From Propionivibrio soli (GTDB lineage: Bacteria; Pseudomonadota; Gammaproteobacteria; Burkholderiales; Rhodocyclaceae), in NCBI RefSeq assembly GCF_025770765.1, contig NZ_JANZKY010000001.1, forward strand, positions 1 through 64,000: a stretch of 64,000 nt of DNA, in the 5' to 3' direction. Both the position numbers and the translations under genes were made by a program. Shown in pieces: positions 8,794 through 13,077 of the stretch. The notes beneath the pieces are model-generated. The model did not search any database and was not told the origin of the DNA. It saw only the letters and a program-made list of their open reading frames with translations. Numbering within the stretch: position 1 is the stretch's first letter; the number at the start of each line of letters is the position of its first letter.

Positions 8794-11700
8794 CTAGTAA
8801 CGCTCAAGGTCGATGTCGATCGCCAACGACCTTATTTCTTTGACCAGCACGTTAAACGACTCCGGCATACCAGCGTCGATCTTGTGGTCGCCCTTCACGA
8901 TGCTTTCGTAAACTTTCGTCCGGCCGTTCACGTCGTCCGACTTAACAGTTAGCATTTCCTGCAGCACGTAGGAGGCGCCATATGCTTCGAGCGCCCACAC
9001 TTCCATTTCCCCGAAACGCTGACCACCGAATTGCGCTTTACCGCCGAGCGGCTGCTGTGTCACCAGCGAGTATGGGCCAGTCGAGCGCGCGTGCATCTTG
9101 TCGTCGACAAGGTGATGCAGCTTCAGGACGTGCATGTAGCCGACTGTCACGGGACGCTCGAATTGTTCGCCCGTACGGCCATCGAATAACACCATCTGAC
9201 CGGATTCTGGCATGCCGGCCAGCCGCAACATCGCCTTGATTTCCTCTTCCTTCGCTCCATCAAAAACCGGCGTTGCGAACGGTACGCCCGCTTCAAGGTT
9301 TCCGGCCATTTCAGCGATTTCGGCGTCCGTCAGTTCGTCAAGCTCTTCCGGCTTGCCGGTCGTGTTGTAGACCTGCTCAAGGAAACTCCGCAGTTCCTTC
9401 TCGCTGGCTTGGCGGCGCAGCATGTCGCCGATCTTGAAGCCCAAACCCTTGGCTGCCAGGCCGAGATGGACTTCAAGCACCTGGCCGACGTTCATCCGCG
9501 ACGGAACACCAAGGGGGTTGAGGACGATATCGACCGGCCGACCATCAGCCATGTGCGGCATGTCTTCGACGGGAACGATCCGCGAAACGACGCCCTTGTT
9601 CCCGTGGCGACCAGCCATCTTGTCACCCGATTGCAGGCGGCGTTTAACGGCAACATAGACCTTGACCATCTTCTGCACGCCCGGTGGCAATTCGTCGCCT
9701 TGCGTGAGTTTCTTGCGTTTTTCCTCGAACGCGACGTCGAAGTCCTTGCGTGTCTGTTCAAGACCCTCACGTAGCGACTCCAGCTGCTGCGCCACGTCAT
9801 CATCCGCCATACGGATATCGAACCAATGGTGTGGTTCGATCCCATCAAGGTATTCCTTCGTAACCGCTGTGCCTTTGGCGAGGCGCTTCGGACCACCGTT
9901 CGCCACTTTGCCTACGATCAGCCGCTCGACACGAGCAAAAGCATCTCGCTCGACGATCCGGAGTTGGTCCGCCAGATCGAGCTTGTAACCCCGCAGGTGA
10001 TCATCGATGATTGACTGCGCGCGCTTGTCACGTTCGATACCTTCGCGCGTGAAGACCTGAACGTCAATGACGGTCCCGGCAATGCCTGACGGTACGCGCA
10101 GAGAGGTGTCCTTCACGTCTGAAGCTTTTTCACCGAAGATGGCGCGCAACAGCTTCTCTTCCGGAGTCAGCTGGGTTTCGCCCTTCGGCGTCACCTTGCC
10201 GACCAGCACGTCGCCGGCGTCGACCTCCGCGCCGATGTAGACGATGCCGGAGTCATCGAGCCGTGACAGCTGGGCCTCACCGAGCGAGGCGATATCGCGC
10301 GTGATCTCTTCCGGTCCCAACTTGGTGTCGCGAGCAACGACCGTCAGTTCCTCGATATGGATCGACGTGAACCGGTCTTCGGCCACCACGCGCTCAGAGA
10401 TGAGGATTGAGTCCTCGAAGTTGTAACCATTCCACGGCATGAATGCGATCAGCATGTTCTGCCCTAGCGCCAACTCACCCTTGTCGGTCGACGCGCCGTC
10501 AGCCACTACGTCACCCTTCGCGATTACGTCGCCGACGCGTACCAGCGGCCGTTGGTTGATGTTGGTGTTTTGGTTGGAACGGGTGTACTTGACCAAGTTG
10601 TAGATATCAACGCCAACTTCGCCTGGGACCGTTTCATCGTCGTTCACTCGAACGACGATACGCGAGGCGTCGACGTAGTCCACCTTACCACCGCGCAGAG
10701 CCTGCACCGCGGTGCCAGAGTCAACCGCCACCGTCCGCTCAATGCCGGTTCCGACGACTGGCTTTTCAGGGCGAAGACAAGGAACGGCCTGCCGTTGCAT
10801 GTTCGCGCCCATCAAAGCCCGGTTAGCGTCGTCGTGCTCAAGGAACGGAATCAATGAGGCGGCAACCGACACGATCTGACCTGGAGCAACGTCCATGTAA
10901 TCGACGCGGGCTGGTTCGGCCAGAATCGTCTCGCCTTTTTCCCGGCACGTTACCAGATCGTCGGTAAGCGTCCCGTCGGCTGTGAGTGCCGCGTTCGCCT
11001 GCGCAATGATGTAAGCGCCTTCCTCAATGGCCGAAAGGTACTCGATTTGATCTGTTACACGGCCATCCGTTACCTTGCGATAAGGTGTTTCCAAAAAGCC
11101 GTATTCATTCGTCCGAGCGAAAAGCGCTAACGAGTTGATCAGGCCGATGTTCGGACCTTCCGGCGTTTCGATCGGGCACACACGACCGTAATGCGTCGGG
11201 TGCACGTCGCGGACTTCAAAGCCCGCACGTTCGCGGGTCAAACCGCCCGGCCCGAGCGCGGAAACGCGGCGCTTGTGGGTAATCTCGGACAGCGGGTTCG
11301 TCTGGTCCATGAACTGCGACAGTTGGCTCGAACCGAAGAACTCTCTTACCGCGGCGCTGATCGGTTTGGCGTTGATCAGATCGTGCGGCATCAGGTTGTC
11401 GGACTCCGCCTGCGACAAACGCTCCTTGACAGCCCGTTCGACCCGTACCAGACCGGCGCGGAATTGGTTCTCGGCGAGTTCACCAACAGAACGCACGCGA
11501 CGGTTTCCAAGGTGGTCGATATCGTCAATATCACCACGCCCGTTGCGCAGTTCGACGAGAATCTTGATGACTTCCACGATATCGCGCGGCGATAGCGTGA
11601 GCTGTTCGCGGACTTCGGCTCCAACACCCAGGCTCTTCAGGCGTGCGGCCAGCGCGTTTGCCTCTTCCTCACTGAGGTTCTCGGCAACAGCGCGCGTTCC

Positions 11701-13077
11701 GTAGGTCAGTTCGCCGAGCAGCGTTTCCACGGCGGCCTCGGAACCGCCGGCCACTTCGATGATCGTATTCACGACCGCGTCACGCTTGGCCGGGACGTGT
11801 TTCACCATCACCTTATATTCGACGACATCTTTCCGGGCCACGCGCCGGTTGAACTTCATCCGGCCAACCGCTGAAAGGTCGTAACGCTCGTCGGAGTAGA
11901 ACAGGCCATTGAACAGAATCTCAACCGCTTCTTCCGTAGGCGGCTCACCCGGCCGCATCATGCGGTAGATCGCGATGCGAGCCGCCTGTTTCGACGCGGT
12001 TTCATCCGTACGCAGTGTCTGCGAAATGAAGCCACCGCGGTCGAGGTCGTTGATGTACAGCGTCTGCAGCGATTCGATTCCGGCCTCGACCAATTTGCCG
12101 AGCAGGGCGTCTGTGATTTCATCATTGGCGTTCGCCAAGATCTCGCCAGTATCCTTGTCGATGATGTTCTGCGCGATGACGCGCCCGACCAAGAATTCCT
12201 CCGGCACGCTGATCTGCTTGATACCCGCCGCGTCCAGTTCGCGAATATGCTTGGCTGTAATCCGCTTGTCCTTCGCAACGATCACCTTGCCGGCGCTATC
12301 GCAGAAATCGAAGCGCGCCACCTCGCCACGCAACCGTTCTGGAACGAGATGAAACTCGACACTCTTGCGACTCAATTGGAATGTATCGAAATCGAAAAAT
12401 TCACGCAGGATCTGTTCCGGCGTCAGGCCGATAGCCTTAAGCAGGGTGGTCACCGGCATCTTGCGGCGGCGGTCAACGCGGAAGAACAGCGTGTCCTTCG
12501 GGTCGAATTCGAAATCCAGCCAGGAACCGCGGTAGGGAATGACCCGCGCGGAGAAAAGAAGCTTTCCGGAGCTATGCGTCTTACCTCGATCGTGCTCGAA
12601 AAAGACACCCGGCGACCGGTGCAACTGCGACACGATGACGCGCTCCGTGCCGTTAATCACGAATGAGCCCGTCGTCGTCATGAGCGGAATTTCGCCCATG
12701 TAAACTTCTTGTTCCTTCACTTCCTTAATTGTGTCCGGCGTTTCACGGTCGAGGATCACCAAGCGGACCTTCGCTCGCAACGCCGAGGCAAAGGTCAAAC
12801 CGCGCTGCTGACACTCCTTGACGTCGAATGCCGGCTCGGCGAGCGCGTAGCTGACAAACTCGAGCCGGGCGTTACCGCTGTGGCTGACGATCGGAAAGAT
12901 CGACGAAAAGGCTGCCTGCAGCCCTTGATTCTTCCGCTGCACGGGCGGGACGGCAGCCTGCAGAAACGCGGTAAACGATTCCAGCTGCGTGGCCAGCAAG
13001 AAAGGAACGTCAAGCACGTTGGCGCGCTTGGCGAAACTTTTGCGGATGCGTTTTTTCTCGGTGTAGGAGTAGGTCAT
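8794..13077 (-). CDS. rpoB: DNA-directed RNA polymerase beta subunit with an extra internal domain
   Basis: This is the beta subunit of RNA polymerase, 1427 residues from the ATG ending at 13077 ([20 protein letters not shown]); a further eight codons of open frame upstream are ignored. The rifampicin region ([18 protein letters not shown]) and the active-site motifs are normal. It is about 85 residues longer than the Escherichia coli protein. Most of the excess is one block at about residues 419-491 (DNA 11605-11823), between [12 protein letters not shown] and [13 protein letters not shown]. That block resembles the L7/L12 C-terminal domain (see findings). rplL lies upstream and rpoC downstream. 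Confidence 0.99.

Follow-up and report, generated by a model that had tools for sequence, protein, structure and literature searches.

The stretch of DNA analysed here, which we call the window, comprises the first 64,000 nucleotides of contig NZ_JANZKY010000001.1 of Propionivibrio soli (assembly GCF_025770765.1). It carries rpoB, which encodes the beta subunit of RNA polymerase, and rplL, which encodes the ribosomal protein L7/L12 (bL12, hereafter L12). In this work we describe a domain of 73 residues inside this RpoB that is almost certainly, as judged from sequence profiles, homologous to the C-terminal domain (CTD) of L12. A sequence-only reading of the window had noted that the block at RpoB residues 419-491 has no counterpart in Escherichia coli. 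This was confirmed: the translation is as described, and the distance from the RMKFN motif to the DIDHL motif is 118 residues in the window RpoB and 47 in E. coli K-12 RpoB (where RMKFN is found at residue 402), a net insert of 71 residues. The profile of Rpb2 domain 2 (PF04561), a domain that we take to be the beta lobe, matches three stretches of the protein, the best of which is the profile end at residues 483-529. Judging from these matches, the insert sits inside or at the edge of this domain, just before the last matched stretch. The remaining RpoB domains are present in a Pfam scan. The coordinates also bear out that rplL lies 258 bases upstream of the rpoB ATG. It is the sole PF00542 match in the whole genome at E <= 0.001, while the insert is found in the genome at rpoB only, with a GC content of 0.61 versus 0.58 and a composition that fits rpoB.

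The relationship with L12 is clearest in comparisons of profiles. Our alignment of inserts (A1) holds 38 sequences; 39 of the first 41 loci yielded an insert, and one of these (L041, identical to L006) was omitted. When compared with the CTDs of 27 L12 proteins (the window's own and those from 26 of 30 fetched loci), the inserts were aligned by hhalign over 66 columns with a score of 38.2, a probability of 93.2% and a P of 2.8e-7. With 62 L12 CTDs these values rise to a score of 43.0 and a probability of 95.2%. Reversed profiles score 8.5 and 13.8, and in column shuffles, 300 for each profile, the maximum is 23.4 with L12 shuffled and 18.6 with the insert shuffled. A set of 139 decoy windows came from RpoB itself, neighbouring frames and antisense frames. 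Its top score, 33.9, belongs to the frame of rplL in the fetched loci, and the next is 20.7. A chance resemblance of the insert to L12 is ruled out by the shuffles and the decoys. Furthermore, the 12 more distant carriers score 40.6 with L12 and the 26 near carriers 28.6, and such a closer score of the distant carriers is expected from descent from L12. The equivalents of A50, L57, G61 and E43 are core residues that the inserts share with L12.

Database searches with the inserts point the same way. Ribosomal_L12 is found by Pfam in 22 of the 38 inserts scanned singly (best E 3.2e-5), and the next family in 2. A search of PDB sequences with the insert profile finds the E. coli L12 structure 1ctf (E 7.5e-4), with a match that spans positions 4-75 of 77. 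A profile made from the inserts only matches the window's own rplL at E 2.8e-5. It also matches 132 of 300 genomes sampled from the order at E <= 0.01, of which 4 match through the insert itself. Among the 296 genomes that lack the insert, the profile hits a short frame of about 120-320 residues, at model positions of about 4-75, in about 127 of the 128 that match. At least six of these frames are recognisable as rplL by motif (L106, L107, L109, L112, L127 and L129), and we have taken the remainder for rplL from their size and register. Partial matches that are not of L12 size occur once each in G062 (contig C19) and in G345 (in a longer frame).

An AlphaFold2 model of the insert (pLDDT 76.8, pTM 0.65) has the element order E-H-H-E-H-E. 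In a fold comparison of this model 1ctf is ranked first, with the same strand-helix-helix-strand-helix-strand order. The model supports the view that the insert folds as an alpha/beta module like the L7/L12 CTD. The alignment with this domain and the common order of elements, both proposed in the sequence-only reading, are supported by hhalign, the decoys, the model and the top fold match. The coordinates of the parts are collected in Table 1.

Table 1. Positions of rpoB, its insert and rplL in the window (model residues refer to the AlphaFold2 model)
Feature	Position	Strand	Basis
rpoB, RNA polymerase beta subunit, 1427 residues, with insert	8794..13077	minus	start ATG at 13077; NCBIfam TIGR02013, 1832.9 bits
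L7/L12 CTD-like insert, RpoB residues 419-491, 73 residues	11605..11823	minus	translation and profile comparison
Insert strand 1, model residues 8-16	11803..11829	minus	AlphaFold2 model
Insert helix 1, model residues 20-34; counterpart of the L12 helix K65-R73; R73 and V66 lost	11749..11793	minus	AlphaFold2 model, alignment
Insert helix 2, model residues 38-50; counterpart of the L12 GLGLKEAK helix; motif lost	11701..11739	minus	AlphaFold2 model, alignment
Insert strand 2, model residues 53-59	11674..11694	minus	AlphaFold2 model
RAVAEN motif; R45, E49 and N50 (A1 numbering) invariant in 38/38 inserts	11677..11694	minus	alignment A1
Insert helix 3, model residues 61-73; counterpart of the last L12 helix	11632..11670	minus	AlphaFold2 model
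Insert strand 3 and exit linker, model residues 78-86	11593..11619	minus	AlphaFold2 model
rplL, complete L7/L12 (N- and C-terminal domains), possible source of the insert	13336..13710	minus	Pfam PF00542 E 5.1e-29, PF16320 E 2.6e-18

Several results weigh against an L12 origin. Taken alone, the window's insert gives a Pfam Ribosomal_L12 match of E 0.22 that covers residues 43-71, less than half of the insert. Its 12.3 bits do not reach the curated PF00542 cut-off of 25.9, DUF1403 (E 0.027) outranks it, and Ribosomal_L12 is absent among the Pfam matches of this insert at E <= 0.1 when members are scanned singly. No match was found in a PDB sequence search with the window insert alone, and the two top PDB matches of the insert profile are partial stretches of designed repeat proteins. 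The structural Z of the model to ClpS ties with that to L12. Finally, the L12 profile also matches another stretch of RpoB (39 columns, 47%, score 23.1), so partial matches of this sort do occur. This second match is probably due to chance, and the match of the insert spans the full length and scores clearly higher. The L12 signal is weak from the single sequence and becomes clear only once its relatives are included.

All carriers in the samples that we searched belong to one lineage. In the Rhodocyclaceae-type family the insert is found in 29 genomes, belonging to 14 genera, out of 150 sampled, of which 122 gave an rpoB match (29/122). The search at E <= 0.01 matched 30 genomes, one of which (G047, locus L031, E 0.006) was dropped; the frame that it matches, on contig C194, has 400 residues and is not RpoB, and the rpoB of this genome, on contig C249, has a RAYP loop (L162). 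Every sampled genome with an rpoB match in the 14 carrier genera keeps the insert (29/29). The order sample of 300 genomes holds four carriers, all from the Rhodocyclaceae-type family, and a class sample of 369 genomes, searched at E <= 1e-8, holds the window's own genome only. A scan of genome contigs gave ten loci, four from Propionivibrio, five from Accumulibacter and one from an uncultured proteobacterium, and the same species may be present both here and in the genome sample. One of these carriers is Propionivibrio dicarboxylicus DSM 5885 (L039). The NCBI taxonomy places Propionivibrio in the Rhodocyclaceae and Accumulibacter as incertae sedis. Neither a different fold, nor a lack of profile similarity, nor a broad presence in betaproteobacterial RpoB was found, any of which the sequence-only reading had named as evidence against an L12-like domain. 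As a separate observation, 28 of the 150 family genomes have no rpoB match at E <= 1e-20, some of them listed as 100% complete (e.g. G003 and G013), which assembly gaps may explain.

In a tree built from 889 RpoB columns that exclude the insert region, all 29 carriers fall into one clade with an SH-aLRT of 100, and a single change accounts for the distribution. This clade persists after the addition of 13 loci from other families that carry a different domain at the site, the SWQ-type domain described below; both trees are quick searches without bootstrap. Because the carriers form one clade, one acquisition is called for. This single gain took place in the ancestor of that clade, within the Rhodocyclaceae-type family.

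What has happened to the domain since can be read from its conservation. GTPase binding by L12 presumably involves the helices with K65, V66, I69, K70 and R73 and with G79-K84. Over the 13 positions of this factor face the mean entropy is 0.11 bits in L12 and 2.04 in the inserts, whereas over the other 51 aligned positions it is 0.97 and 1.41, respectively. The equivalents of R73, G79 and K84, which are invariant in L12, are retained in 0/38, 1/38 and 1/38 inserts and the GLGLKEAK motif is gone. Some of the face does persist, which tells against a complete replacement: the K70 equivalent is K in 18 inserts, the K65 equivalent is R in 20 and the L80 equivalent is L in 6. Going by the aligned columns, most of the putative factor-binding face is lost from the inserts. 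A different set of seven residues (E3, K5, G43, R45, E49, N50 and Q75 in A1) is invariant in 38/38 inserts.

The account that we favour, and regard as probably correct, is a lineage-specific insertion that descends from the L7/L12 CTD, was gained once at the beta lobe, has lost most of its factor face and serves as a docking or stabilising module. A domain derived from the L12 CTD would have entered RpoB once, in the ancestor of the carrier clade. Its place in the beta lobe region is, in other lineages, either empty or taken up by a short loop or another domain. Most of the GTPase-binding face would then have been discarded as another set of residues became invariant. From this replaced face and these invariant residues we infer a new interface or structural role, so that the insert would act as such an element on the polymerase lobe. 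Docking on beta insertions is known: in B. subtilis SI1 receives the C-terminal domain of PcrA (PMC8318588), and in E. coli TraR docks on Si1 (PMC6970531). Our best guess for the function is hence docking or stabilisation at the lobe, and a passenger role is the main rival. It is quite possible, though we say so tentatively, that the insert is a docking module for a putative lineage-specific partner. That it is a stabilising module of the lobe is unlikely.

A passenger would be an L12-derived domain without any partner, captured a single time and retained only since it must fold without disturbing the lobe. We consider this somewhat doubtful. The median NG86 ratio of non-synonymous to synonymous change (dN/dS) is 0.41 for the insert against 0.056 for up to 300 following RpoB codons. 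This median is taken over 348 unsaturated pairs of the 629 compared (741 are possible; pairs of unequal length and identical pairs were excluded), and the 15 closest pairs printed range from 0.05 to 0.45. A ratio some 7 times that of the RpoB core allows for weak constraint only, which counts against our account and is what a passenger would show. Likewise, family relatives live without the insert: no L12-type domain was found in the 60 of 93 insert-free family genomes with an rpoB match whose site was read. However, non-synonymous change is below synonymous change in 629/629 insert pairs, which shows that the insert is under purifying selection, and the seven invariant residues and the lack of any loss in the carrier genera also speak against a passenger.

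The site itself is occupied in several ways. Of the 60 non-carriers, 31 have no insert, 26 have a RAYPEK-type loop of about 20 residues (RAYPEKIDDKAPGWLKRFYERVG type) between RMKFN and DIDHL, e.g. L136 and L147, and 3 have an SWQ-type domain. The last is a domain of about 84 residues (SWQxR ... PELSLxKVSLEGV ... DLKxKGVD) that is found at the same RpoB site in 13 of the 300 order genomes as well (order families f40, f49 and f81). The loci of both samples together are L158, L168, L172 and L193-L205. With three kinds of occupant, this beta lobe site looks like an insertion hotspot. A Pfam search with nine SWQ-type members found no family in more than two of them (best E 0.011), and the best match among PDB sequences is a partial one to TATA-binding protein (E 7.9e-6).

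These domains raise the prospect that one ancient insertion gave rise to both the L12-type and the SWQ-type inserts, which have since diverged; the L12-like domain would then predate the carrier clade. Such a common origin would be compatible with our favoured account, but we think it decidedly unlikely. The two do share their site, a similar length and a similar exit linker. The SWQ-type is paraphyletic on the RpoB tree and branches before the carrier clade, with an SH-aLRT of 80-98 at the deeper forks and of 45 next to the carriers. The hhalign score of the two profiles, 20.7, exceeds the maximum of 200 shuffles (17.1) and the best score of the SWQ profile with 139 decoys (16.3). However, the best unrelated decoy of the insert profile reaches the same 20.7, and single-sequence scores fall inside the range of 893 decoy pieces of RpoB. 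In addition, the SWQ-type lacks similarity to L12 (1.1-1.2%), and many intervening lineages have nothing at the site. A homology of the SWQ-type to the L12-type insert, suggestive at first, was thus not upheld by the decoys.

The sequence-only reading had also suggested a stalk-like domain in contact with translation factors. As a stalk mimic the insert would bring a translational GTPase (EF-Tu, EF-G, IF2 or another) to the polymerase, and transcription and translation would thereby be coupled. The L12 CTD is reported to be the common binding site of translational GTPases (PMC10931766), the free form of the L12 homologue MRPL12 to bind mitochondrial RNA polymerase (PMC7939475), and the K70 and K65 equivalents are partly retained. 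Nevertheless this is very unlikely: the inserts are more variable on the factor face than elsewhere, exactly where L12 is near-invariant, and the replacement of its invariant face residues disfavours such a contact. An independent origin, which the sequence-only reading had also allowed for, would make the insert a ClpS-like or an unrelated domain with a fold reached by convergence. This can hardly be right. ClpS and L12 do tie structurally, but hhalign gives 0.1% to ClpS (sequences from 26 of 30 fetched loci) against 93-95% to L12. The insert profile gives ClpS sequences no more than 7.6 bits, and L12 sequences up to 27.1. Pfam ClpS is found in 1/38 inserts (E 0.089), and the NDD stretch of ClpS sequences is missing from the insert.

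It is instructive to compare the insert with known systems. With the bL12 CTD (PF00542, 1ctf) it shares fold, element order, full-length profile similarity and a conserved core, but it is internal to RpoB and has three extra residues before strand 2. The N-terminal dimerisation domain and hinge of a functional bL12 are missing from its 73 residues, and among the three proteins scanned PF16320 matched rplL only. The ClpS adaptor is of the same fold class by structure. Like the lineage-specific insertions of the beta subunit (beta-i4/SI1, beta-i5, beta-i9, beta-i11 and the BEAN domains; PMC11515920), the insert is a domain that lies in frame at a variable site, occurs in a single clade but not in its sister lineages and evolves faster than the core. 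This 2024 survey assigns most beta insertions to the one domain family BEAN, with an alpha-beta-beta / beta-beta-alpha core and a TGD/E motif, and describes an early burst of insertion that then tapered off (PMC11515920). The insert was gained at about the family level, which makes it young by the time scale of the survey. It is not a BEAN domain by our tests: the element order of its model differs from this core, it has no TGD/E, and its hhalign score to the RpoB stretch with DKDTGEIL is 14.7 (2.2%). Separately, the other RpoB stretch matched by the L12 profile holds a TGE motif resembling that reported for BEAN domains. Among the literature matches listed (titles and abstract openings, with subscription journals thinly covered) no L12-like domain in RpoB is described.

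The neighbouring rplL is a plausible source of the insert. A tree of inserts and L12 (67 columns) does not place the insert clade, and the nearest rplL rows are a mixture of its own family and others. The same survey proposes that gene neighbourhood, including ribosomal-protein genes, may have influenced beta insertions (PMC11515920). A bolder and rather doubtful scenario is that the stalk domain was copied from rplL into rpoB, the next gene of the operon, within one family and was then refitted as a docking platform on the lobe for a lineage-specific factor of transcription, or of transcription and translation.

Where the lineage-specific insertions of RNA polymerase come from is still an open question. 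The insert described here dates to about the family level, and its closest known relative is the L12 family, encoded by the neighbouring gene. As the carrier clade has close relatives without the insert, its gain, source and effect are directly testable. Human mitochondrial RNA polymerase is a single-subunit enzyme. It is joined by an L12 homologue, MRPL12, as a separate protein (PMC7939475), and the insert is a natural case of a ribosomal module on RNA polymerase that is akin to this pair. If the scenario of a copy from rplL is true, insertions into RNA polymerase still arise, and it is the gene neighbourhood that would supply them.

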